Shown here piece by piece: positions 22,871-31,906 of a stretch of 33,524 nucleotides of DNA. Both the position numbers and the translations under genes were made by a program. Every line of letters begins with the position of its first letter. Positions within the stretch are counted from its first letter, which is position 1. Below the pieces are notes generated by a model. The model searched no databases. It was not told the origin of the DNA and worked only from the letters and a program-made list of their open reading frames with translations. Origin of the DNA: Fulvivirga sp. (lineage in GTDB: Bacteria; Bacteroidota; Bacteroidia; Cytophagales; Cyclobacteriaceae); assembly GCA_028280565.1 (NCBI GenBank), contig JANQLQ010000010.1, positions 1 through 33,524 on the forward strand, given 5' to 3'.

Positions 22871-23947
22871 TCACTCCACCGCATGGGGGATAAACACCTC
22901 GAAGGCCGTACCTTCCCGGCTGGTCTTAAAGTTGACCTTTGCCCGGAGTTTGTTCGCCGCGATCCTGGCAATATATAGGCCCAAGCCTGAACCTTTAGAC
23001 TCCGAGGACCCCCTGAAAAACATCTCGAATACCTTATCCCTGATGATGGCATCTATCCCGGTGCCATTGTCTTTCACTACGATATGAGCGCCGTTCTGGT
23101 CCGTGTGGATCGCTATCCGGATCTTGGCTACACGATCAGGATGCCTTCCGAATTGCACAGCATTTTCGATGATCGGCGATAGTATTTTAGAGATCAAATA
23201 ATGATCACTAAAAAAAGGGACGTGCAGTTTGTACCGGTATGACCATTTCGTGTCTATTTCTTCCTTTTCAAGGGGTATACCTCCCACGATATCGTTGACA
23301 AGGTCAGGAAAATTAACGTCATCAGAATGGATAGGTGTGGTATGAATGGTGGATAAATGATGTACGTTCATCATCAGCCGGTTCTGTTTCTGCAGGGTGG
23401 CTTCGATAAGCTCCATATATTCATTCTGATCGCTGGTACAATCTTTCTTGGCCAAATTCACCAGGCCCAGTATGGTAGAAATGGGAGAACGCAGGTCGTG
23501 CGAAAGACGGTAGATCAATTTATCATACTCATAAAGTACCCTTTGAAATTGGTTTCGCTCCTCCTTTGATTTCTTGATATCTTTCACCACGGCGCAAATG
23601 AAAGAACTGCTGCCATTTTCGATGATATGCGTTTTTACAGAGACTGGAAGAAATTTGCCCGATTTTGTGGTCAGGGTTTGCTTAAAACTGGCTTTTCGTC
23701 GTTTCGACAGTTTATCGACATGCCCGTACCAGTTAGAAATGGTGAAATTAGGGGATAGCTCGAAGATCTCCATGCCGGGAAGCTCATTTTGGCTGTACCC
23801 TGTTTTCAAAACCGCGGCCTTATTTACTTTGATAATCCTTCCCGAAAAATCAACCCAAAAAACGCCCTCCTCCACCTGGTCGAGAATATCAATCAATGCA
23901 TCACGATTTTCTAAGGTGGTATACTCCTTTATGTTAAACGATCTCAT
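22871..23947 (-). CDS. PAS-domain sensor histidine kinase (soluble)
   Basis: The 358-residue kinase has no membrane segment. A PAS domain (about 18-125, EEGVFWVDFSGRIIKVNKAA) is followed by a HisKA dimerisation helix with RLSHDLRSPISTILG (phosphorylated His150) and an HATPase_c domain. That domain has N-box IIENAVQFG, G1 VKDNGTGID, F-box DKVFEMFFRG and G2 SKGSGLGLYIARIA, so it should be active. It lies about 200 bases downstream of a degenerate receiver gene on the same strand and near a NarL-type regulator, but neither is an obvious cognate; HisKA kinases usually pair with OmpR-type or hybrid receivers. The signal is probably sensed in the cytoplasm. Specific function unknown. Confidence 0.9.
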   Translation of the reverse strand: MRSFNIKEYTTLENRDALIDILDQVEEGVFWVDFSGRIIKVNKAAVLKTGYSQNELPGMEIFELSPNFTISNWYGHVDKLSKRRKASFKQTLTTKSGKFLPVSVKTHIIENGSSSFICAVVKDIKKSKEERNQFQRVLYEYDKLIYRLSHDLRSPISTILGLVNLAKKDCTSDQNEYMELIEATLQKQNRLMMNVHHLSTIHTTPIHSDDVNFPDLVNDIVGGIPLEKEEIDTKWSYRYKLHVPFFSDHYLISKILSPIIENAVQFGRHPDRVAKIRIAIHTDQNGAHIVVKDNGTGIDAIIRDKVFEMFFRGSSESKGSGLGLYIARIAANKLRAKVNFKTSREGTAFEVFIPHAVE

Positions 23948-24082
23948 GGTTAGATTAGCTAGTAATACTTAAATGCAAATTTTCGCTCAAATAATTATTT
24001 TTGCTTAAGGGTTAGATCTTAATTCCAACTATACGCGTATCGCTTAATTATTATCGCAGAAATCTGGTAGAACCCTTGTTTT

Positions 24083-24145: not shown

Positions 24146-24538
24146 CTATAATAAAAGGAACGAAGAACTCGCCTTTGGTATCAGTTTGCTGATCTTATTC
24201 TCCAAGTCATCGGTGAAATCATCGATGTTGAGATAAGCCGTTGCACCTCTCTCCAGTATTTTGTCAATCAATATCTGCTGGTTGTACTCATCGATCACCA
24301 AAACAGGGCAATCATGTACGGATGGATTTTCCTTCACTTTGTCCAAAAAATCTACCCCTAGCCCGTAAGTATCGACCACGACAACATCAGGTCTATCCAA
24401 CCGCGTCAAAGTGACCTGCTCGGAATTGCTTTTTACCAGGTAAAAATTCCATTTTTGGAACAGTTCTTCCGGTATAGCATCAAATATGGAACTTGAGGCA
24501 CTTAAAAATAATATAGAATGCTTTTCTTCTCCTCTCAC
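24146..24538 (-). CDS. Degenerate stand-alone receiver (pseudo-receiver)
   Basis: The 130-residue protein follows the CheY fold pattern: strand SILFLSAS, strand DVVVVDTYG, strand PVLVIDEYN, then GATAYLNIDD. Asp56 sits where the phospho-acceptor is expected. The acidic pair of the first strand is replaced by Ser13-Ala14, the switch Thr/Ser by Asp83 and the conserved Lys by Asn/Ile104-105. It therefore probably does not bind magnesium or become phosphorylated normally and may act as a protein-interaction module. The start is a GTG; an AGAGGAG stretch directly after it raises the possibility of a later non-ATG start. A -7 box (TAACTTTG) lies 20 bases upstream, giving it its own transcript. It lies between two signalling genes, so an adaptor role is plausible but unproven. 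Confidence 0.7.
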   Translation of the reverse strand: MRGEEKHSILFLSASSSIFDAIPEELFQKWNFYLVKSNSEQVTLTRLDRPDVVVVDTYGLGVDFLDKVKENPSVHDCPVLVIDEYNQQILIDKILERGATAYLNIDDFTDDLENKISKLIPKASSSFLLL

Positions 24539-24557: not shown

Positions 24558-24565
24558 CAAAGTTA
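24558..24565 (-). promoter_or_regulatory. Candidate -7 promoter box of the pseudo-receiver gene
   Basis: The - strand reads TAACTTTG, an exact match to TAnnTTTG, 19 bases before the GTG start. No TTTG is seen at the -33 position; instead the perfect palindrome at 24598-24639 lies just upstream, a location suited to an activator or repressor site. Confidence 0.5.
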
Positions 24566-24597
24566 AGGTCGGTAGGCTAGAAGGGTTTAAGCGATCA

Positions 24598-24639
24598 CCC
24601 TTATTCCCTCTAAGTGGTACCACTTAGAGGGAATAAGGG
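24598..24639. repeat. Perfect 42-base palindrome
   Basis: The left half CCCTTATTCCCTCTAAGTGG plus T is exactly complementary to the right half, with no spacer: 21 bp on each side of the centre at 24618/24619 (GGTACC). It begins 16 bases after the stop of the NarL-type regulator on the - strand and lies upstream of the next gene's -7 box. As RNA it would form a very stable hairpin, but no T tract follows; as DNA it can form a cruciform or bind a dimeric protein. Confidence 0.9.
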
Positions 24640-24654
24640 AAATAAATGTTTCGG

Positions 24655-25308
24655 TCATACTTGGTCAAAAAGCTCGTTTTTTACAGCATAAAGGACTAGG
24701 CCAGTGGTATTTTTGGCCCCGGTCTTTTCCAGCAGGTTCCGCTTATGGACCTCCACGGTCCTAATGCTTATAAATAACTTATCGGCGATTTCCTGGTTAG
24801 AGTATTCTTCCATGATCAGCTGGTAAACTTCCTTTTCCCTGGGCGTTAGCGGTGTGGCCAATGCCTCCGATCTGCTCCTGGCCTTTTTCTTGGCCAAGTT
24901 GTTCATAACCGTTTGGGCAACTTCTTTACTGTAATAGATATCGTCTTCCATGACCGACTTAAGAGCATATTTAAGTTCTGATTCATCGCAGCTTTTGAGC
25001 AGGTAGCCCCCAGCCCCGGCGTCCATCATAGCTTTGATATGTTGATAATCATTATGCATGGTAAGAGCAATTACCTTTATTTCCGGGTGCTCCTCTATCA
25101 CCTTTTTTGTAGTATCTATACCGTCCATCCCTTCCATATTTATGTCCATGAGTATGAGATCCACTTCTTTTTGCTGGGTCAAGTTGAGGGCATCATAACC
25201 GCTGCTGCCTTCGGCTACGATTTGGTATTCCGGGTCACCATCAAGGTAAAGTTTGATGCCGTCCCTAACGATCCTGTGATCGTCGATGATTAAGATGTTA
25301 ATACTCAT
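24655..25308 (-). CDS. NarL/FixJ-family response regulator
   Basis: The 217-residue DNA-binding response regulator has an intact receiver domain (about 1-125: Asp9-Asp10, phospho-acceptor Asp55 in LILMDINMEG, Thr83 in IALTMHND, Lys105 in GYLLKSCDE). A LuxR-type helix-turn-helix domain follows (about 152-217: LTPREKEVYQLI, NQEIADKLFISIRTVEVHKRN). Its ATG overlaps the stop of the large sensor kinase gene by 4 bases (ATGA), so the two are translationally coupled and almost certainly a cognate pair; NarL-type regulators are the usual partners of HisKA_3 kinases. A perfect palindrome lies directly after the stop. Target genes are not visible; the upstream divergent array at 29.9-31.3 kb is one possibility. 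Confidence 0.95.
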   Translation of the reverse strand: MSINILIIDDHRIVRDGIKLYLDGDPEYQIVAEGSSGYDALNLTQQKEVDLILMDINMEGMDGIDTTKKVIEEHPEIKVIALTMHNDYQHIKAMMDAGAGGYLLKSCDESELKYALKSVMEDDIYYSKEVAQTVMNNLAKKKARSRSEALATPLTPREKEVYQLIMEEYSNQEIADKLFISIRTVEVHKRNLLEKTGAKNTTGLVLYAVKNELFDQV

Positions 25309-28300
25309 GCTGGTTCCATTTTTTTATGTGGGAGCTCAATTGTGATCGATGTACCCCTGTTGGGGAAGCTATCAAGGTTGAAGTTGCCGGAGAGTGAATT
25401 TACCCGGTTACGCATGCTTTTTAGTCCAAAACAATTATTTCCTGCCAATACCTCTTCTACGATAAAGCCTATTCCGTCATCTTCCACGGTCAATACGAGG
25501 TCCTCTTCGTAACGCATCAATTGGATGGTGACATTCTTGGCCTGGCTATATTTTAGTATATTGTTAACGGCTTCTTGCACAATACGGTAGAGGTTCACTT
25601 CTAGTTTTTCATCAAACCGATCTCCCTCCAAATTATCATAAAATTCAAATTTTATATCACTCACCGAGTCAATTTCTGCGATCATACTTTCTACGGAAGG
25701 TACAAACCCAAAATTCTCGATACTCCTGGGCATCAGGTTATGAGCAATATCACGACTATCTTTAATAGCGGCATTGAGGCTATTTAGACCTGTAATGAGT
25801 TTTGAAAATCCTTTTTGGTCTATCTCCATGTCTTTTTTGAGAGAATTGAAGTTAAGGGAAGCAGTAGTTAATTTTTGTCCCAGGCTATCGTGCAGTTCCT
25901 TGGCAATACGCTTACGCTCATTATCTTCTGTTTCAATCACTGTTGATACGATCTTCTCTTCGGCTTCTACCCTATCCGTGATGTCCGTCATAAAGCCCTC
26001 CAGCAGGTCAGTTCCCTCGATCAGGCCACCTTGCTCCCAGACCCATTTGATCTTTTGTTCCTTGGTGCGGATGCGGTAGATCAGTGTAAACGGGCGCCCC
26101 TGCAGTACAGCGGTTTGCACTTCTTTCCATACACTTTCCTTGTCAGACCCTAAAATGATATCCCCGTACTTCGTGGTATTACTTTCCAGTTCATCGGCTG
26201 GATAGCCCGTCAGTTCCTTGGCGCCTTCGCTAACGAATACCATGGTCCAGTGCCGGTCATTATGACAGCGGTATACCATCCCGGGTAGGTTAGACATCAG
26301 CGCACTGAGCATCCTCTCATTTTCCGACAATGCAATCTCGGCCTTTTTACGCGCGTCAATATCAATGTGTACTCCCAGCACCCTCCTGGCCCGGCCATCC
26401 TGGTCCCTGTCTACCACCCGGCTCCTGTTCATCACCCACTTATACTCCCCTGATTTTACCCGTATCCTGTATTCCTGCTCGAAAAAAGTGGTTTTATCTT
26501 TGAGGTGGTCCTTAAATTTATTCCAAGTTTCCTCTTGCTGATCCGGGTGAAGCAGGTTAAAAAAAGATTCGGCCGTAAAGCCCATCTCTTCCTTTTCATA
26601 GCCGAGCATTTCCATCATGTAATCGTTGTAGGTCAACTCCCCGGTTTCAGCGTTCCAATCCCACATCCCCTGCCGGGTACCTTCTATGGCCAGTTGCAAC
26701 CTTTGCTCATTCTCAAGCTTTTCGGTGATGTCCAGCATGATACCGTCCAGCATGCAAAGGCCGTCTTCAAATTGAACAATGTTAAACCGGTCTAGCACCC
26801 ACTTAGTCTTACCACTATCGGTGATAATAGGAATGATATGCTCACCACCCGAACCGTCCTGGGTGTGTTCTTCGTAGTTCATCCGCACCTGGCCGTGGTA
26901 TTCCGGCGCTATACAATCCCATATCACGGCATGTCGCCTGGTGAACTCCTCATTGGATACTTCAAAAAGATCTTTACAGCCCTCACTGACGAATTCTATC
27001 GAATATCCAGCCCATGGATCGAGGCGATAAGACATTCCCGGCAGGTTAAACATCATACTGCTCAAAAGACGTTCTTTTTCTACCAGGGCAAACTCGGCCA
27101 CTTTCCTATCATTTATATCGATATGGGTACCAATAGCCCTTACGGGTTTCCCCTCGGCAGACCGCTGTACCACCCGTCCCCGTGTCTGTATCCATTTCCA
27201 GCCTTTATCAAGGGTCTTCAGCCGGTACTCTCGCTCATAATAATCCGTTTTGCCCTCAAGGTGATCGTCTAAAGCCTTTTGGGTAACCTCGCGATCGTCA
27301 GGGTGTAGCTGTGCAAAGAACCTTTCCGAAGCTACTTCGATACGCTTATCATTTATACCCAGCATTTCAATGGCGTATTGATTGAGCTCCAATACATCCT
27401 CTTCGATATTCCAATCCCACATGCCTTCGCGGGCACCTTCTATGGCCATTTGCAACTGTTGCTCGCTTTCCAGCTTGTCCGAGATATCGATCAGCATGCC
27501 ATCCAGTACTATCTCACCATCGGCGAGTTTTACGGGTTTGAACCTATCCAGTACCCATTTTATCTTACCATTTACATGCAGCGGGATCACTAGCTCTCCT
27601 GCCGACATTTCTTTAACGCTACGATAGGTTTCTGTCCTGACCAGTTCATGGTACTCTTCTAAGATGAAATCCCTTGGCTTATATCCTTTACTCAAAAACT
27701 CCGACGGCGTAAGCCCAAGCAGTTCTACGGAGCCTTCGCTAACAAAGATCATGGTAAAATTCTCGTCAATTTTAAGCCGCCAGGCCATCCCGGGCAGGTT
27801 AGACATCATACTGCTGAGCTGTTGTTCACTTTTTTCCAACGCCAACTTCGCTGCTCTTTGCTCGGTGACATCGATCCCTATCCCCCAATCGGCCCAACCC
27901 GGGATAGGATAGGTGGCCGATTGATGTATCCAAAGTATAGTGCGCTTACCCCCGTCCTTGCAGGTGATCACGGTCTCATCCGTAATATCATTCCCATGCT
28001 GCGCCCATCTTTTTTGCATTTTAAGGCGGTATTCTGTGTCAGGATAGAGCAGTTCAAAGGATTTTTCATTCCCGATCATTTCTTCGGAAGTATAGCCCGT
28101 AACCTCCTCGCACCGCTTATTCCACACCAGCAGCTTACCCCCATGGTCAAACGCATCGAGCATTACAGGAACATTCTGGACTGCCAGGCGCATACGCTCT
28201 TCGCTCTGGGTGATGGCCATACGCCAGGCACGCTCTTCGGTCACATCACGGGATACATATAAAACATGACTGGTCTTGCCGCTAAAGCGTATCGGTATTA

Positions 28301-29528
28301 AAACAGACTTGGCCACCCCTTCTATTCCTATGGCCGTGCTGATCTTTTCTTCAAAGTGTACGGGCTTACTGCTGGCGATGGCTTCTTTGATCTGCTCGTG
28401 CCGGGTCTTGGTCTCAACAGGGTCGAACTTTAGGACATCATTATAAAACACGGACAGCTCCATGCCTAAAAGCCGGTAAGCCGAGTACTGGGCATCATGT
28501 TTGGCAATTTTATCTAGGAACCAACCGGGAAGCTTCTTAATAATAAAAAAGTCCTCGCCTTGCACCTCTAACAGCCCAATGAAATCCCTTGTATTGTTAT
28601 AGATCAGTGAAAGAAGGTGCTCGCGCTCTTTAATCTCGTTCAGCGCTTCTTTTAAGCCTTCCGTCCTCTTTTCAACCTGTTTTCTCAATACCAGTACATG
28701 GACCAACAACTGCACGATCCCCAGGCCAAATGCAATGATGACACCCCATACCCAGAGAGGCACGATGACCGGGGTGTTTTTTTGGAAATACGTATCTAGC
28801 AGTTGGTAGTAGAAGGAATTATTGTCCTGCTTCAATAGTTTTATCTCTCGATCAATGGCGGCCCTCAGCTGCCCGGCTTGGCTTGATTTTTTTGAAAAAG
28901 CATAGCTCATTTTAAACGGGGAAAAAACGATAGGCGTAGGTTGTACACTAAATCGATCTTCATTAAGGTCACCATAAATGCGGCTTACCAACCCTGCATC
29001 TACTTCCCCCTCCTCGATAAGTGCAAATATTTTTTCATAATGATCTACCTCGATCAGTTGGCAAGAGATGTCCAACTGGGACAGCAAATGCAAGAAACCT
29101 TTGTTAGGTCCGATCACAAAATAACTTTGAGGAAGTATGGCTACCTTTTTTCCCGCCAGGTCCAGCAAGGAGGTAAGCTCAGCGTCAGAATGTGCATAGA
29201 TCCGCGCCCAGGTGGACAAAACCCCTTGTTCAGAAAGTATATATTTTTCCTGGTTCAGCTTAGAATTACCGGCTTGGCCAAGCATATCGATCTTCCCTTG
29301 CTCTACCCAGCGGCGACATTCTTCATTTGTGCCTCGTTCATACACTAACTCCCACCCCTCTTTCTCGGCTACGTGCTCTAGCACGTTAATGAACAGGCCA
29401 TCCATTTGTCCATGCTCATTTTCGAACATCAGCGGGTAAAAATCCCATACGCCTACAGTGACCCGTTGAGCAAGAGAGGGGCTGCCAGTGAGAATAATTA
29501 GACAAATTTGAATAATAAGCCTATTCAT
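25305..29528 (-). CDS. Large sensor kinase: periplasmic solute-binding domain, seven PAS domains, HisKA_3/HATPase
   Basis: The 1407-residue membrane sensor has a signal peptide (about 1-20) and a periplasmic type-3 solute-binding domain (about 22-250: VTVGVWDFYPLMFENEHGQ, KIDMLGQAG, LLDLAGKKVAILPQSYF, GEVDAGLVSRIYG). A membrane helix (about 255-282) is followed by a run of PAS/PAC modules starting near 305, 443, 570, 692, 822, 944 and 1074. The catalytic end has ERKRIAKELHDSLGQKL (His1213), a degenerate helix 2, and HATPase motifs YRIVQEAVNNILKYSQA, VEDDGIGF and CFGLKSMRNRV. HisKA_3 kinases pair with NarL-type regulators, and that gene overlaps the stop by 4 bases. PAS domains 3 to 7 arose by duplication of a 252-residue PAS pair. 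The ligand is probably a small molecule in the periplasm; identity unknown. Confidence 0.95.
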   Translation of the reverse strand: MNRLIIQICLIILTGSPSLAQRVTVGVWDFYPLMFENEHGQMDGLFINVLEHVAEKEGWELVYERGTNEECRRWVEQGKIDMLGQAGNSKLNQEKYILSEQGVLSTWARIYAHSDAELTSLLDLAGKKVAILPQSYFVIGPNKGFLHLLSQLDISCQLIEVDHYEKIFALIEEGEVDAGLVSRIYGDLNEDRFSVQPTPIVFSPFKMSYAFSKKSSQAGQLRAAIDREIKLLKQDNNSFYYQLLDTYFQKNTPVIVPLWVWGVIIAFGLGIVQLLVHVLVLRKQVEKRTEGLKEALNEIKEREHLLSLIYNNTRDFIGLLEVQGEDFFIIKKLPGWFLDKIAKHDAQYSAYRLLGMELSVFYNDVLKFDPVETKTRHEQIKEAIASSKPVHFEEKISTAIGIEGVAKSVLIPIRFSGKTSHVLYVSRDVTEERAWRMAITQSEERMRLAVQNVPVMLDAFDHGGKLLVWNKRCEEVTGYTSEEMIGNEKSFELLYPDTEYRLKMQKRWAQHGNDITDETVITCKDGGKRTILWIHQSATYPIPGWADWGIGIDVTEQRAAKLALEKSEQQLSSMMSNLPGMAWRLKIDENFTMIFVSEGSVELLGLTPSEFLSKGYKPRDFILEEYHELVRTETYRSVKEMSAGELVIPLHVNGKIKWVLDRFKPVKLADGEIVLDGMLIDISDKLESEQQLQMAIEGAREGMWDWNIEEDVLELNQYAIEMLGINDKRIEVASERFFAQLHPDDREVTQKALDDHLEGKTDYYEREYRLKTLDKGWKWIQTRGRVVQRSAEGKPVRAIGTHIDINDRKVAEFALVEKERLLSSMMFNLPGMSYRLDPWAGYSIEFVSEGCKDLFEVSNEEFTRRHAVIWDCIAPEYHGQVRMNYEEHTQDGSGGEHIIPIITDSGKTKWVLDRFNIVQFEDGLCMLDGIMLDITEKLENEQRLQLAIEGTRQGMWDWNAETGELTYNDYMMEMLGYEKEEMGFTAESFFNLLHPDQQEETWNKFKDHLKDKTTFFEQEYRIRVKSGEYKWVMNRSRVVDRDQDGRARRVLGVHIDIDARKKAEIALSENERMLSALMSNLPGMVYRCHNDRHWTMVFVSEGAKELTGYPADELESNTTKYGDIILGSDKESVWKEVQTAVLQGRPFTLIYRIRTKEQKIKWVWEQGGLIEGTDLLEGFMTDITDRVEAEEKIVSTVIETEDNERKRIAKELHDSLGQKLTTASLNFNSLKKDMEIDQKGFSKLITGLNSLNAAIKDSRDIAHNLMPRSIENFGFVPSVESMIAEIDSVSDIKFEFYDNLEGDRFDEKLEVNLYRIVQEAVNNILKYSQAKNVTIQLMRYEEDLVLTVEDDGIGFIVEEVLAGNNCFGLKSMRNRVNSLSGNFNLDSFPNRGTSITIELPHKKMEPA
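25959..27821 (-). repeat. Internal 252-residue (756-base) PAS-pair repeat in the sensor kinase
   Basis: The motif NLPGM appears at residues 577, 828 and 1080 and the motif AIEG.R.GMWDWN at residues 695 and 947, a spacing of 251-252 residues throughout. This gives two full PAS-pair units (about 570-821 and 822-1073) plus a final half unit. Between copies the sequences have diverged considerably, so the duplication is old. Confidence 0.9.
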
Positions 29529-29896
29529 CGGGGTTGATGGATGGTTAATATAGAAAAGATAGCAATTAATGAACGAGTATAAAAATTAACGAGTTCACTT
29601 ATTCGCAGTTTTAGGGGGTGAACCATTAATTCCCCAGGTCTTTTTTCTACAATCCTGTATCAAAGATCAAATACAAGGCTCGGTTCGTATGCAAAAGGTC
29701 AAATTTCATAAGGGCAAAACCTGGTGCTCCCTCAGTAATGTACACCGGTCATTTTTTATTGAAAATCCAATCCACTTATTAACCTCGCCAGGGTAACAGG
29801 AATATGGGCCGTTCTTAATCGTCTTTGCGAGTGATAACACTAAAAGTACGTCAAGGGGACCACAGGGCCGGGTAGAGTCATAGTCTCCCTGGGAAA
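29529..29896. other. Intergenic region between the sensor kinase and the RNA array
   Basis: This region must contain the promoter of the kinase operon (- strand), but I cannot fix it; TATCTTTT at about 29555-29562 on the - strand is an imperfect -7 box. GTTCAC and GTGAAC (about 29593-29626) form a weak inverted repeat. Around 29820-29837 a TCGTCTTTGCGAGTG stretch vaguely resembles the promoter boxes of the array that follows and may be an eroded unit. No protein gene seen. Confidence 0.4.
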
Positions 29897-29967
29897 TAAG
29901 GGATTCGCCTATTTCTCATTTTAAGAGTAGGCACTGAGCATAAGGCCTATGAGAAGCACCATCTTTG
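29897..29967 (+). promoter_or_regulatory. Conserved promoter-like block, RNA unit 1
   Basis: This block starts with AAGGGATTCGCCTATTT, continues through TTTTAAGAGTAGGCACTGA (CACTGA at 29932-29937), and after exactly 22 unconserved bases ends in CATCTTTG (29960-29967), close to the TAnnTTTG -7 box. The same arrangement, with the same 22-base spacing, recurs at 30304 and 30693. The conservation of boxes but not spacer is what a promoter or activator site plus promoter would show. Confidence 0.6.
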
Positions 29968-29972
29968 TCATG

Positions 29973-30092
29973 TAAATCAAACGAAAGGTTTGTAGCACGA
30001 GTGACGAAAGGCACAAGTGCCCTAAAGATAAGGTTGTTGGATTTGTGGGTTAGTTGAAGTGGGGGTTGAAGAAATGACACCTCCACTTTTTT
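29973..30092 (+). ncRNA. Predicted small RNA, array unit 1
   Basis: Predicted transcript of about 120 bases from just after CATCTTTG to the T tract. It has an early conserved stretch (ATCAAACGAAAGGTTTG), a short hairpin (GGCAC/GTGCC at 30010-30021) and the conserved linker GTTGTTGGATTTGTGGGTTA. A 10-bp terminator hairpin at 30057-30088 (AAGTGGGGGT with ACCTCCACTT, one G-U pair, 12-base loop TGAAGAAATGAC) is followed by TTTTTT. No open frame on the + strand looks coding. The - strand frame across it merely reads through the repeat. The transcription start is an estimate. Confidence 0.6.
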
Positions 30093-30217
30093 CCACCTTT
30101 TCAAATCAAGAGATAACGTTATTCTTTCTTTGAAATAATGGGAACGGTAAATATGCCAAGCCTTCAATGAGACTTGAATGATTTTCAACCTTGAAGCAAT
30201 GGATAGCCCGGCAAAAG

Positions 30218-30281
30218 ATAGCATGTGGTTATAGGTTAGTTAGGAGTGAGGGCCAGCGTCACGTTAGGCCTTCACTTATTT
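30218..30281 (+). repeat. Array unit without promoter block (copy B): linker plus terminator
   Basis: Linker GTGGTTATAGGTTAGTTAGG leads into a 10-bp hairpin at 30245-30276 (AGTGAGGGCC with GGCCTTCACT, one G-U pair, 12-base loop) and TTATTT. The loop differs completely from the other copies while stem length and loop size are kept. Upstream at about 30151-30196 a weak hairpin (CTTCAA/TTGAAG) stands where other units have theirs. No CACTGA/CATCTTTG block precedes it; TTCTTTG at about 30125 could be a diverged box. Confidence 0.55.
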
Positions 30282-30303
30282 CCAGTACCATCTGCACATG
30301 GTT

Positions 30304-30374
30304 TAAGGGATACACTTATTTACCGATTTAAGAGAATACACTGAAAGCAAGATACTGGCAATGTACCAACTTTG
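30304..30374 (+). promoter_or_regulatory. Conserved promoter-like block, RNA unit 2
   Basis: AAGGGATACACTTATTT, then ATTTAAGAGAATACACTGA (CACTGA at 30339-30344), 22 bases, then CAACTTTG (30367-30374). Same layout as at 29897 and 30693. The -7-like box here is CAACTTTG against CATCTTTG in the others. Confidence 0.6.
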
Positions 30375-30379
30375 TCATG

Positions 30380-30485
30380 TTGATAAAAGAGAAAGTGTTG
30401 ATCATTAAGCGCTGGAAGAATTTATAGTTTAATGAGTGGGGTTGATGGGAAGTGAAGGTTGAATTTTTTCGACCTTCACTTATTT
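30380..30485 (+). ncRNA. Predicted small RNA, array unit 2
   Basis: Predicted transcript of about 105 bases. It starts like units 1 and 3 (GTCATGTTGAT), has a possible hairpin CATTAA/TTAATG (30403-30434), a diverged linker (ATGAGTGGGGTTGATGGGAA) and the strongest terminator of the family. That hairpin has a 14-bp stem at 30450-30463 with 30468-30481 (AAGTGAAGGTTGAA pairing through one U-G) and a 4-base loop, followed by a T-rich tail. The hairpin is again exactly 32 bases long although its loop is replaced by additional stem. Confidence 0.6.
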
Positions 30486-30577
30486 CAAAGCCGAAAACCT
30501 CCCGGTCCAGCTAAGGTCATAATAGGATATTAAGCATTGCATAGATGTGGGCCCTGTTTTTTTAAATACTGGGGTAC

Positions 30578-30674
30578 GGCAGGCGAGAAGTCGCCCTGCC
30601 ATGAAAGGTAGTGTTGTGGTTATGTGGGTTAGTTGAAGTGGGGGCTGAAGAAATGAGGCCTTCACTTATTTTTT
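30578..30674 (+). repeat. Array unit without promoter block (copy D): hairpin, linker, terminator
   Basis: A first hairpin pairs GGCAGGCGA (30578-30586) with TCGCCCTGCC (30591-30600, one bulge). The linker GTGTTGTGGTTATGTGGGTT follows, then the terminator hairpin at 30636-30667 (AAGTGGGGGC with GCCTTCACTT, two G-U pairs, loop TGAAGAAATGAG) and TTATTTTTT. The full hairpin-linker-terminator layout is present, but upstream sequence shows no CACTGA/CATCTTTG block. It may be transcribed by read-through of unit 2 or from an unrecognised promoter. Confidence 0.55.
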
Positions 30675-30692
30675 CAACCCGGCCTTCGAAAA

Positions 30693-30764
30693 CTAAGGGA
30701 TTTGCTTATTTATCATTTTAAGAGTAGGCACTGAAATAAGGACCGGCACAGGTTAGCATCTTTG
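30693..30764 (+). promoter_or_regulatory. Conserved promoter-like block, RNA unit 3
   Basis: TAAGGGATTTGCTTATTT, then CATTTTAAGAGTAGGCACTGA (CACTGA at 30729-30734), 22 bases, then CATCTTTG (30757-30764). The first 40 bases are nearly identical to unit 1, 0.8 kb away, while the 22-base spacer is unrelated, so selection on the boxes is likely. Confidence 0.6.
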
Positions 30765-30769
30765 TAACG

Positions 30770-30885
30770 TTGATTGAGGGGAAGGTTTGAAACGCAAGTG
30801 AAAAGACTACTTGGCGGAAAAAGGAAGTGCTGTTGGAAGAGGGGTTTGTGAAGTGGAGGCCAAAGAAATGCGTCCTCCACTTTTT
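30770..30885 (+). ncRNA. Predicted small RNA, array unit 3
   Basis: Predicted transcript of about 116 bases. The 5' part (GTTGATTGAGGGGAAGGTTTG) aligns with unit 1. A hairpin pairs CGCAAGT (30793-30799) with ACTTGGCG (30809-30816, one bulge). The linker GTGCTGTTGGAAGAGGGGTT follows and the terminator hairpin spans 30851-30882 (AAGTGGAGG with CCTCCACTT, then one mismatch and a C-G pair), followed by TTTTT. The stem uses G-C/A-T pairs at positions where units B, D and F use A-T or G-U, supporting an RNA structure under selection. Confidence 0.6.
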
Positions 30886-30944
30886 CCTACTTCTTAGGTA
30901 AAGAAGGTCAACTACCTGTCGGAACGTCGACTAGTAGATAAAAT

Positions 30945-31012
30945 AGTGTTGTTGGAGAAGTGTGGGTTAGTTGAAGTGAGGGCTGAAGAAATGAAGCCTT
31001 CACTTATTTTTT
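30945..31012 (+). repeat. Array unit without promoter block (copy F)
   Basis: Linker GTGTTGTTGGAGAAGTGTGG, then GTTAGTTG, then a hairpin at 30974-31005 (AAGTGAGGGC with GCCTTCACTT, one G-U pair, loop TGAAGAAATGAA) and TTATTTTTT. Only about 60 bases separate it from the end of unit 3, so it has no room for a full promoter block and could only be reached by read-through. Confidence 0.55.
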
Positions 31013-31042
31013 CAACTACTCTCCTATGAGCTTTAAAAAGAA

Positions 31043-31103
31043 AGTGTTGTTGGATGTGGGGTATGTGGAGTGAAGGTCGAAGAAATGAGGCCTTCACTTT
31101 TTT
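31043..31103 (+). repeat. Array unit without promoter block (copy G)
   Basis: Linker GTGTTGTTGGATGTGGGGTA, then a hairpin at 31069-31098 (AGTGAAGGTC with GGCCTTCACT, one U-G pair, loop GAAGAAATGA) and six T residues. It follows copy F by about 30 bases. The 10-base loop is the core of the 12-base loop of the other copies. Confidence 0.55.
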
Positions 31104-31222
31104 CACTTCACCGCCCATTTGATAGAAATTTTACAGTACGAGGATAAGGATCATTTTCAAGAAATACACGATTGTGTGAAGATCCTAGAAGGAAGAAGAA
31201 ATTGATTTGAGTTAAGCATAGT

Positions 31223-31280
31223 TATGTTGTTGGTTGTTTAGGTTAAACTGAAGAAAGGGCCCGTTCGGGCCCTTTTCTTT
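31223..31280 (+). terminator. Diverged last array unit (copy H) with G+C-rich bidirectional terminator
   Basis: The family linker is still visible (TATGTTGTTGGTTGTTTAGG, then TTAAACTGAAG), but the terminator is a different hairpin: GAAAGGGCCC with GGGCCCTTTT around GTTC (about 31253-31276), followed by CTTT. Because the stem is flanked by A and T on both sides, it can also terminate the - strand lipoprotein gene that ends at 31347. It marks the right end of the array. Confidence 0.7.
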
Positions 31281-31346
31281 ACCACGTTCCCGTAAGTCTA
31301 CGGGAAAACCAACCCCACTATTATTATCCTTTTGCCCATTCCCGGT

Positions 31347-31472
31347 CTATGCCGGCGCCTCTTGTTTTTGCTCTTTTACTTCCTTGGTATAGGTAGGACA
31401 AGTGTATGTACTACATGAAGCGAAAAGTATGCTTACTGCCAGGGCTACTATCAATGTCTTAAATCCCTTCAT
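31347..31472 (-). CDS. Small lipoprotein of 41 residues
   Basis: A short - strand gene reads MKGFKTLIVALAVSILFASC (Cys20 as lipidation site) followed by STYTCPTYTKEVKEQK and a Pro-Ala end. The n-region, hydrophobic core and lipobox FASC are textbook, leaving a mature peptide of only 22 residues. Similar tiny lipoproteins with a CSTYTCPTY core are, as far as I recall, present in other Bacteroidota, with no known role. A possible -7 box (GATCTTTG, - strand, 31495-31502) lies 22 bases upstream, and the shared hairpin at 31253-31276 can end its transcript. It stands alone, convergent with the RNA array. Confidence 0.75.
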   Translation of the reverse strand: MKGFKTLIVALAVSILFASCSTYTCPTYTKEVKEQKQEAPA

Positions 31473-31906
31473 TTCATTTCCGATTAGTTACAAGACAAAG
31501 ATCACGATATGGGCAACACAAAAACATACCGAAAGAAACCTAAAATTACTCGGTGAAATCACGTATTATTCGGGGTAAAGGAGAAATATACCGACAAGTT
31601 ACCATTCACTTAAAGGCCCAACACCTCCACTCCCTGTTCAAAAACAATGTCGGCAGGAATGCCTTGATCCGCAAGCTTGGCCAGGTCATGCTGGCGTTCG
31701 GGTCGTATTTGGGCCATCGCCATAGGCCTCGTACCAAAACAGCTCGTCCATGATCTCCCCTACTTCGATCAGCCGGCGGCAGGCAAAAAATAGGGTTGCT
31801 GATTATTTATTGCAGACTGCCGACTTTAATATCAAGGATAAAGTTCTCCGGCAGATCATTCGTAAATCCATCCCGTTATTGTTAAACTAGCGATTAAAAT
31901 CACGAC
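31473..31906. other. Intergenic region before the FGE-like gene, possible coding remnant
   Basis: No intact gene seen. A + strand frame from about 31760 to the TAG at 31888-31890 reads VADYLLQTADFNIKDKVLRQ and ends IIRKSIPLLLN, with protein-like composition but no start; upstream the frame is broken by a stop. A - strand frame over 31680-31790 (GEIMDELFWYEAYGDG) also looks protein-like and ends early. I cannot name either; they may be remnants of a lost gene. Confidence 0.4.

Follow-up and report, generated by a model that had tools for sequence, protein, structure and literature searches.

To our knowledge, RNA regulators of the Bacteroidota have been studied mainly in Bacteroides. GacA is a regulator of the NarL/FixJ family, the Qrr RNAs are sigma-54-dependent, and Qrr and PrrF RNAs stand under dedicated regulators. 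In the GacS/GacA-RsmX/Y/Z system (PMC7911923, PMC2375449), which in the account of PMC7911923 includes the tandem genes rsmX-1/rsmX-2 of Pseudomonas brassicacearum, a site TATAGCGAAACGCTTACA lies upstream of each RNA gene; the same paper also names Qrr and PrrF as multicopy RNAs. The FopS/GibS RNAs of Bacteroides thetaiotaomicron, which act with RbpB, are described as 14 members across multiple loci with sigma-ABfr promoters (PMC11697453). Here, we analysed a stretch of 33,524 nucleotides of a Fulvivirga sp. genome of 9.05 Mb (G000, contig C259; the whole stretch is called the window). It contains a tandem array of hairpin units, located upstream of a sensor kinase gene on the opposite strand and ahead of a 41-aa lipoprotein-like frame. 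From its sequence this region is very probably an array of regulator-switched small RNA genes. The other genomes and loci compared carry G and L numbers.

The array resembles the GacA-Rsm system in having a NarL/FixJ-family regulator, a site upstream of the genes and tandem RNAs of ~110 nt (PMC7911923), and differs in that the site is a double dyad. When the NarL-type regulator was compared with the UvrY/SirA/GacA model, it reached 129.8 bits at a cut-off of 280; the NarL/FixJ type and the dyad are present, and binding is hypothetical. CsrA/RsmA (PF02599) was found in none of four genomes (G000, G010, G003 and G013), with the positive control matching in 3 of 14 named genomes, and GGA motifs are not enriched in the eight window units (19 against 26.1 expected). 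Membership in the Csr/Rsm family was rejected on these two grounds.

With FopS/GibS the array has in common the phylum, paralogous RNAs made of a single-stranded stretch and a terminator, and an RRM protein in the genome, whereas the FopS/GibS genes lie at multiple loci behind sigma-ABfr promoters and those described here in a tandem array with a regulator site (PMC11697453). The FopS/GibS seed is described as pairing near the start codons of outer-membrane protein mRNAs (PMC11697453); here, enrichment of complementary 8-mers was found for related RNAs of the sigma-54 type and none for the linkers of the window. The FopS structure is stated there as deposited in Rfam. Rfam 15 gave the array no match, neither at the gathering threshold over the window nor at E<=1 over 29700-31500 in cmscan, and inclusion of FopS in that release is unconfirmed. 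GacA-Rsm and FopS-RbpB are the closest known designs; the array falls outside the first, and belonging to the second is not established. It is like Qrr and PrrF in consisting of multicopy RNAs under a dedicated regulator, and its wider family likewise has sigma-54-type members, although this comparison concerns the layout and includes no demonstrated sequence relation. By title and the opening of the abstract, none of the matches listed in a literature search gave an account of the array or its RNA family, many subscription journals being outside the coverage of that search.

Hairpins, linkers and promoters of the array

Eight terminator hairpins were found on the + strand within 1.4 kb, starting at 30062, 30244, 30450, 30636, 30850, 30974, 31065 and 31253 and each with a T-rich tract. 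All lie within 5 nt of the positions given in an earlier sequence-only reading of this DNA. A hairpin scan of 29890-31290 yielded 9 matches compared to a mean of 1.65 and a maximum of 5 in 40 dinucleotide shuffles, to 0-3 matches in 21 other 1.4-kb stretches of the window and to 1 on the minus strand of the array region; the ninth match (29891) is a promoter box and no terminator. A stricter scan (loops 3-8, both strands, 29600-31500) gave 2 sites where 2.0 are expected by chance, one of them being the last array hairpin read on the minus strand. The stems covary: in those of 14 units, eight from the window and six from relatives, 92.9% of the cells are paired and 13 are double-change cells; each of these values, and also the covariation score, was reached by 0 of 500 shuffles. 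The two measures based on numbers of pairs or of pair types stand out less (50/500 and 86/500 shuffles).

The linker motif that had been described as common to all units holds only in part. GGTTAGTTGAAG is exact in three units (30048, 30627 and 30965), the first promoterless unit contains the variant GGTTAGTTAGGAG, and the remaining four linkers are related or degenerate. The repeat is a super-unit of ~390-400 bp with one promoter and two linker-hairpins, the second promoterless, which occurs three times and is accompanied by two further hairpins. With the start taken as 5 nt past the -7 box, the predicted RNAs W1 (29972-30096, linker 30032-30058, terminator from ~30057), W2 (30379-30488, terminator from 30450) and W3 (30769-30888, terminator from 30850) would be ~124, 109 and 120 nt long, close to the 105-120 nt proposed before. 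The promoterless units, which like these lie on the + strand, are Wm1 (30222-30284), whose linker GGTTATAGGTTAGTTAGG is near the seed of the sigma-54-type RNAs of the same genome, Wm2 (30608-30674, terminator from 30636), Wm3 (30942-31012, terminator from 30974), Wm4 (31036-31106, terminator from 31065) and Wm5 (31216-31281), the last unit, whose linker contains GTTTAGGTT and which has a strong two-way terminator from 31253. These units and terminators can be read directly from the DNA, and their transcription we infer.

Three of the eight units are preceded by a promoter block, as had been noticed earlier: W1 at 29897-29967, W2 at 30304-30374 and W3 at 30694-30764, all on the + strand. In each block a first dyad near TAAGGGATNYRCTTATTT and another one 25 bp further on are followed by CATCTTTG (as in W1) or CAACTTTG, which are near the Bacteroidota -7 box TAnnTTTG of the consensus given in PMC9723704. 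Allowing 0-1 mismatch, the entire genome has three copies of the first dyad, each at an array promoter, and in G003 its one exact occurrence adjoins the kinase gene; at 2 mismatches the counts are near the control level.

A promoter model (R1) was built from eight blocks and applied to 146 kb. It also picks, with weak scores and with the same geometry as in the array, sites on the - strand upstream of the neighbouring receiver gene (24558-24626, first dyad to -7 box 65 bp, E 0.006) and PAS-kinase gene (23976-24046, 67 bp, E 0.012), and in locus L005 the box likewise stands before the receiver and PAS-kinase genes. A partial box near the sensor kinase start (29587-29630, + strand, 13.0 bits, E 0.011), where L005 has its first RNA promoter, could be a decayed promoter or could serve kinase autoregulation. 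Among 30 Fulvivirga sites, the distance from the first dyad to TTTG is 67 bp in 25, 65 bp in one, 66 bp in one and 68 bp in three, and the dyads are 25 bp apart in 27; this set, in which L069 was re-anchored by eye and from which the partial window site at 29582 was excluded, is not a random sample because it was found with R1. Across the genus the site precedes either a divergent RNA (G010, G003, G013, G004, G006 and G007) or a divergent DUF4154 gene (G001, G002, G009 and G014), and in further placements a receiver, PAS-kinase or lipoprotein gene. The R1 matches in G004, G006 and G007 adjoin the kinase, and all three genomes are outside the sources of the model. In genomes of the family, 24 of 245 were matched at E<=0.01, mostly weakly.

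Because the double-dyad site marks the neighbour genes of the regulator as well as the array RNAs, it is most simply the regulator's own site, and the adjacent NarL-type regulator, whose binding to the box we infer, probably drives the array. This agrees with the earlier suggestion that the array might be under the adjacent pair of sensor kinase and NarL regulator.

A search of 58 genomes with the array DNA matched two, G000 itself and G010 (metagenome-assembled genome BBD 1991-12); in the latter there are three units with a box, plus a fourth hairpin. A single unit and its promoter are retained in G003 and in G013, and G004, G006 and G007 each have a single GAAGTTG-rich, RNA-like unit, so that, beside the kinase at the syntenic place, six other genomes of the genus carry RNA-like units. 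The N-terminal 300 aa of the kinase are matched in 11 of 15 genus genomes, G000 included; seven of these 11, again with G000, have a divergent RNA, and in the other four a boxed DUF4154 gene occupies its place. Homologous arrays had been named as a check of the small-RNA gene family that was proposed earlier, and the family is supported at the level of sequence. In two respects the earlier picture needs correction: five of the eight units lack a promoter of their own, and the array RNAs seem to be part of a wider family with sigma-54-type members.

As a whole, we lean with moderate confidence towards the explanation that the array RNAs are switched by the regulator and pair via their linker with the leaders of exported-protein mRNAs. 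The divergent sensor kinase would phosphorylate its NarL-type regulator, which would then bind the double-dyad site at the three promoters, where the first dyad starts 67 bp ahead of the -7 box TTTG, and turn on RNAs of ~110-125 nt. The regulator would activate the receiver and PAS-kinase genes nearby as well. Transcription of each RNA would stop at its hairpin, and read-through could reach the five promoterless linker-hairpin units. The array may have arisen by tandem duplication of an ancestral RNA gene, of which most relatives having it keep one copy, and the many copies are proposed to give a high RNA dose. Most likely, the linker would act by base pairing close to the start codon in the leaders of mRNAs for exported proteins. 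Should it prove to be expressed, the array would be a regulator-switched tandem set of RNA genes from an order other than that of Bacteroides, belonging to a family with no match at Rfam thresholds, and it would present the layout of the GacA-Rsm circuit in genomes where no CsrA was found. Exported-protein leaders would be a predicted target class that is directly testable, and the array a route to study start-codon-proximal control that does not use Shine-Dalgarno pairing.

The wider seed-RNA family and its possible targets

In F. imtechensis, F. marina and F. sediminis more boxed units were found downstream of the regulator, with AGGTTTAGGTTGATTA ahead of the terminator. Box and core are also present in G004, G006 and G014; G001 has them too, with a variant of the core and a run of masked letters. 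The same core starts RNAs, often in tandem, behind sigma-54-type promoters (TGGCAY N5 TTG, recognised by eye). These RNAs consist of a conserved 5' seed and a terminator, with a GTTGGTT hairpin loop in most, and in 16 aligned members from four genomes AGGTTTAGGTTGATT is invariant. In G006 and G007 they are near rpoN, between asnS and rtcB (gene names assigned by eye; in G006 other genes intervene). Loci with such RNAs are L096 3414-4578 (-), L097 10199-10936 (-), L098 2491-8177 (+) and L179 1030-1650 (+).

The model R2, built from the alignment of the 16 RNAs, matches 15 of 15 genus genomes at E<=0.1; for the four that supplied its sequences this is by construction, and G005 and G011 are matched only weakly. 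Of the family genomes 51 of 295 are matched at E<=0.01, weakly outside the genus. The window genome has one R2 match and a second RNA recognised by eye just upstream of it (L179), with the seeds GGTTTAGGTTAGTTAATTAG and GATTTAGGTTAGTTATTAG. A search of family genomes with the seed pattern matched 43 of 390. Beyond Fulvivirga most of these had a single hit with one mismatch, and control matches looked similarly scattered; in 6 of 20 such loci outside Fulvivirga an ATG on the antisense strand within 60-70 nt opens a frame of at least 60 codons.

To relate the window linkers to this family, a seed matrix was made from five of seven seeds of G000, G010, G003 and G013, with L182 and L193 dropped as they have no GGTTAG form. 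The eight window units reach a summed score of 70.1 compared to 46.0 +/- 6.9 for shuffles, the best of which scored 69.4 (0 of 1000 reached the observed sum). An earlier matrix from G004-type seeds had given a weaker relation (1/200), and the five-seed matrix was used afterwards. By this eight-unit sum the array appears to fall within an undescribed Fulvivirga seed-RNA family, its linker being related to the sigma-54-type 5' seed. The window linkers look like a diverged form of the family seed, and the array looks like a branch of a wider RNA family with sigma-54-type members, a family that may adjust the production of cell-surface proteins. The sequence-only reading had not recognised the family, and Rfam adds no name to it: the RNA units of the relatives are without match at gathering scores, and the only sub-threshold overlap is BcKCsr2 on the sigma-54-type RNA of L107 (24 bits, gathering score 40, E 0.25).

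Possible targets were sought among mRNA leaders, with starts predicted mechanically and signal peptides called by a crude hydropathy rule; the figures are uncorrected for the word lengths and seeds tried. In 400 kb of G004 with 313 predicted starts, 8-mers complementary to the core are present in 13 leaders compared to 1 upstream and 2 body stretches (6 of 300 shuffled cores), and 10 of the 13 genes begin, by eye, like signal peptides or lipoproteins. For ~716 kb of G000, the window among them, with 457 starts, complements of 8-mers from the genome's own sigma-54-type seed are present in 22 leaders, 4 upstream and 0 body stretches (4 of 500 shuffled seeds), and more often in signal-peptide-like genes (15/168) than in others (7/289, p 0.0022). 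The G004 seed applied to G000 leaders gave 6, compared to 6 upstream and 1 body stretch. The motif AACCTAAAC, of which the GTTTAGGTT of Wm5 is the exact complement (the only window unit holding it), stands 4-24 nt before ATGA 144 times, with 36 control matches, in the seven genomes with the exact 17-mer core (G001, G002, G004, G006, G007, G009 and G014), and 47 times, with 61 control matches, in five genomes that lack it (G003, G008, G011, G012 and G013).

Several results weigh against the favoured explanation. The promoter-block model found no site at E<=1 before Wm1-Wm5, which leaves five of the eight units promoterless. Taken singly, W1, Wm1, Wm2 and Wm3 pass at 3% in seed likeness, and the other four window units do not, and the divergent RNAs of G004, G006 and G007 resemble GAAGUUG repeats more than the family seed. 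The seed-leader result in G000 rests on 8-mers, shorter words being weaker (6-mers 42/500, 7-mers 62/500 shuffles). The G000 seed also finds 16 leaders in G004 compared to 2 upstream and 2 body stretches (12/500 shuffles); since it fits both species, seed and leader do not clearly co-vary and the fit is only partly species-specific. AACCTAAAC is enriched before ATGA in G000 (31 compared to 7 control matches), G010 (26/12) and G005 (12/4), although these have no exact core, the exact-core grouping was chosen after the seed-pattern results had been seen, and a few of the AACCTAAAC matches are RNA genes read backwards. Finally, the complements of the window linkers themselves are not enriched in G000 leaders (2 of 457, compared to 3 upstream and 1 body stretch), CAACTAACC occurs before ATGA once compared to 2 control matches in G000 and 68 times compared to 66 over 15 genomes, and duplex energies do not tell leaders apart from stretches upstream or in gene bodies. 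In the word, motif and duplex-energy tests, pairing between the window linkers and leaders is unsupported; the sole weak signal comes from 6-mers in signal-peptide-like genes (26/168 compared to 24/289, p 0.0145, uncorrected and in a table of many tests).

The linker of W2 (30438-30448) and the leader of the sensor kinase (29530-29540) have GGGGTTGATGG in common on the + strand, by which the W2 RNA could pair with the kinase mRNA beside its start codon. The duplex has -23.1 kcal/mol and rank 7 when the best linker is taken for each of the 457 leaders; this pairing is suggestive at most and indistinguishable from chance.

Bacteroidia ribosomes are described as not recognising Shine-Dalgarno sequences (PMC9976891), so that other ways of control close to the start codon are plausible. 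On a broader scale one may tentatively imagine, as an idea that we hold with less than even confidence, a genus-wide RNA layer for the Fulvivirga cell envelope. It would consist of multicopy, often tandem RNAs, sigma-54-type or NarL-switched, whose seed is antisense to a motif before the start codon of exported-protein mRNAs, with seed and leader shifting together between species and the window array as the regulator-switched arm with a diverging seed. If true, such leaders would allow an entire group of mRNAs to be switched together in a class that does without Shine-Dalgarno pairing.

Alternative functions of the hairpins

Since the window linkers resemble the seed in sum, yet their own complements are not enriched in leaders, the array RNAs could act by pairing, the sign of which would have to be deduced as well, or by protein titration. 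The effect of the array is therefore less certain than its being RNA genes: pairing fits the family, and a decoy fits the GUUG motifs and the copy number. As decoys, the RNAs would bind an RNA-binding protein, for example a single RRM protein, through GUUG-type repeats and free its targets, as Rsm/Csr RNAs do for RsmA/CsrA, and copy number would matter because titration is stoichiometric. We regard this as possible but rather unlikely. GTTG occurs 20 times in the eight window units (9.7 expected) and 16 times in five pooled single-copy relatives (6.8 expected), where GAAGTTG is found 8 times (0.4 expected), so that a high motif number is reached by tandem genes or by repeats inside one RNA; in G010, however, GTTG is not enriched (5 compared to 4.2). 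Seven of eight genomes searched, G000 among them, have one RRM_1 match each, whereas G243 has none despite a similar tandem unit, and CsrA was found in none of the four genomes searched for it. The GTTGGTT loop, which by eye stays constant while the 5' seed changes, is present in 12 of the 16 aligned sigma-54-type RNAs and missing from four. Binding of any protein to the array RNAs is hypothetical.

It is improbable that the hairpins serve chiefly as an insulator, a series of redundant terminators that separates the kinase gene from the lipoprotein gene and whose RNA has no function. The last hairpin is indeed a two-way terminator facing the lipoprotein gene and five units are promoterless, but three strongly conserved promoters point into the hairpins, conservation extends to linkers and 5' stretches, and a promoter with one unit is retained in G003 and G013. 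Short protein genes in place of RNAs are very improbable. Of 11 units examined, 10 contain frames of 10-25 codons, and the sister species G006 and G007 have a 20-codon frame in common, but by eye no conservation of the frames is seen across W1, W2, W3 and the G010 units, and the 102-aa minus-strand frame is without match in a Pfam search. With no conserved frame seen, the coding reading was rejected. A mobile or REP-like repeat that multiplied locally, for which the evident tandem duplication speaks, is hardly credible and was rejected as well, because a search for dispersed copies in the 9.05 Mb genome returned only the array itself, the syntenic place is common to relatives, the promoters are gene-like and Rfam gave no match.

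Neighbouring genes and further loci

Beside the array lies a block of genes on the minus strand. The sensor kinase (25305-29528), divergent from the array, has an SBP_bac_3 periplasmic domain, several PAS domains, HisKA_3 and HATPase according to Pfam. It is followed by the NarL/FixJ-type response regulator (24655-25308, Response_reg and GerE), the proposed activator of the array, which is 87% identical to its counterpart in L005. Two genes of the proposed same regulon, each with the box upstream, encode a receiver-like protein (24146-24538) with a weak Response_reg match (16.6 bits, cut-off 30.2) and a PAS-HisKA sensor kinase (22871-23947, assigned by Pfam).

On the other side, the small lipoprotein gene (31347-31472, - strand, 41 aa) gave no match in a Pfam search, and similar frames adjoin the array in relatives. 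Its counterpart in L071 has, by eye, the box and a seed-bearing 3' untranslated region (UTR). In L071 (9244-9540), L101 (near 2435) and L106 (near 2128), the 3' UTR of a small lipoprotein-like gene with a TCPTYSK motif contains the same seed and a terminator, and this may possibly be a 3' UTR-derived RNA. By eye, remnants at 31600-31880 of the window resemble the end of a probable metallopeptidase gene that L005 has at this place (960-1952); in the window the copy looks incomplete.

In another genus of the family, a similar box was seen by eye before an RpoD-like sigma factor gene (L033, L035 and L044). In L040 (1501-1830), likewise from another genus of the family, two GGTTGGTTTTTGGAAGTAAA units in tandem, each with a hairpin, come after a box-like promoter and lie, again by eye, upstream of a PAS-type kinase gene.

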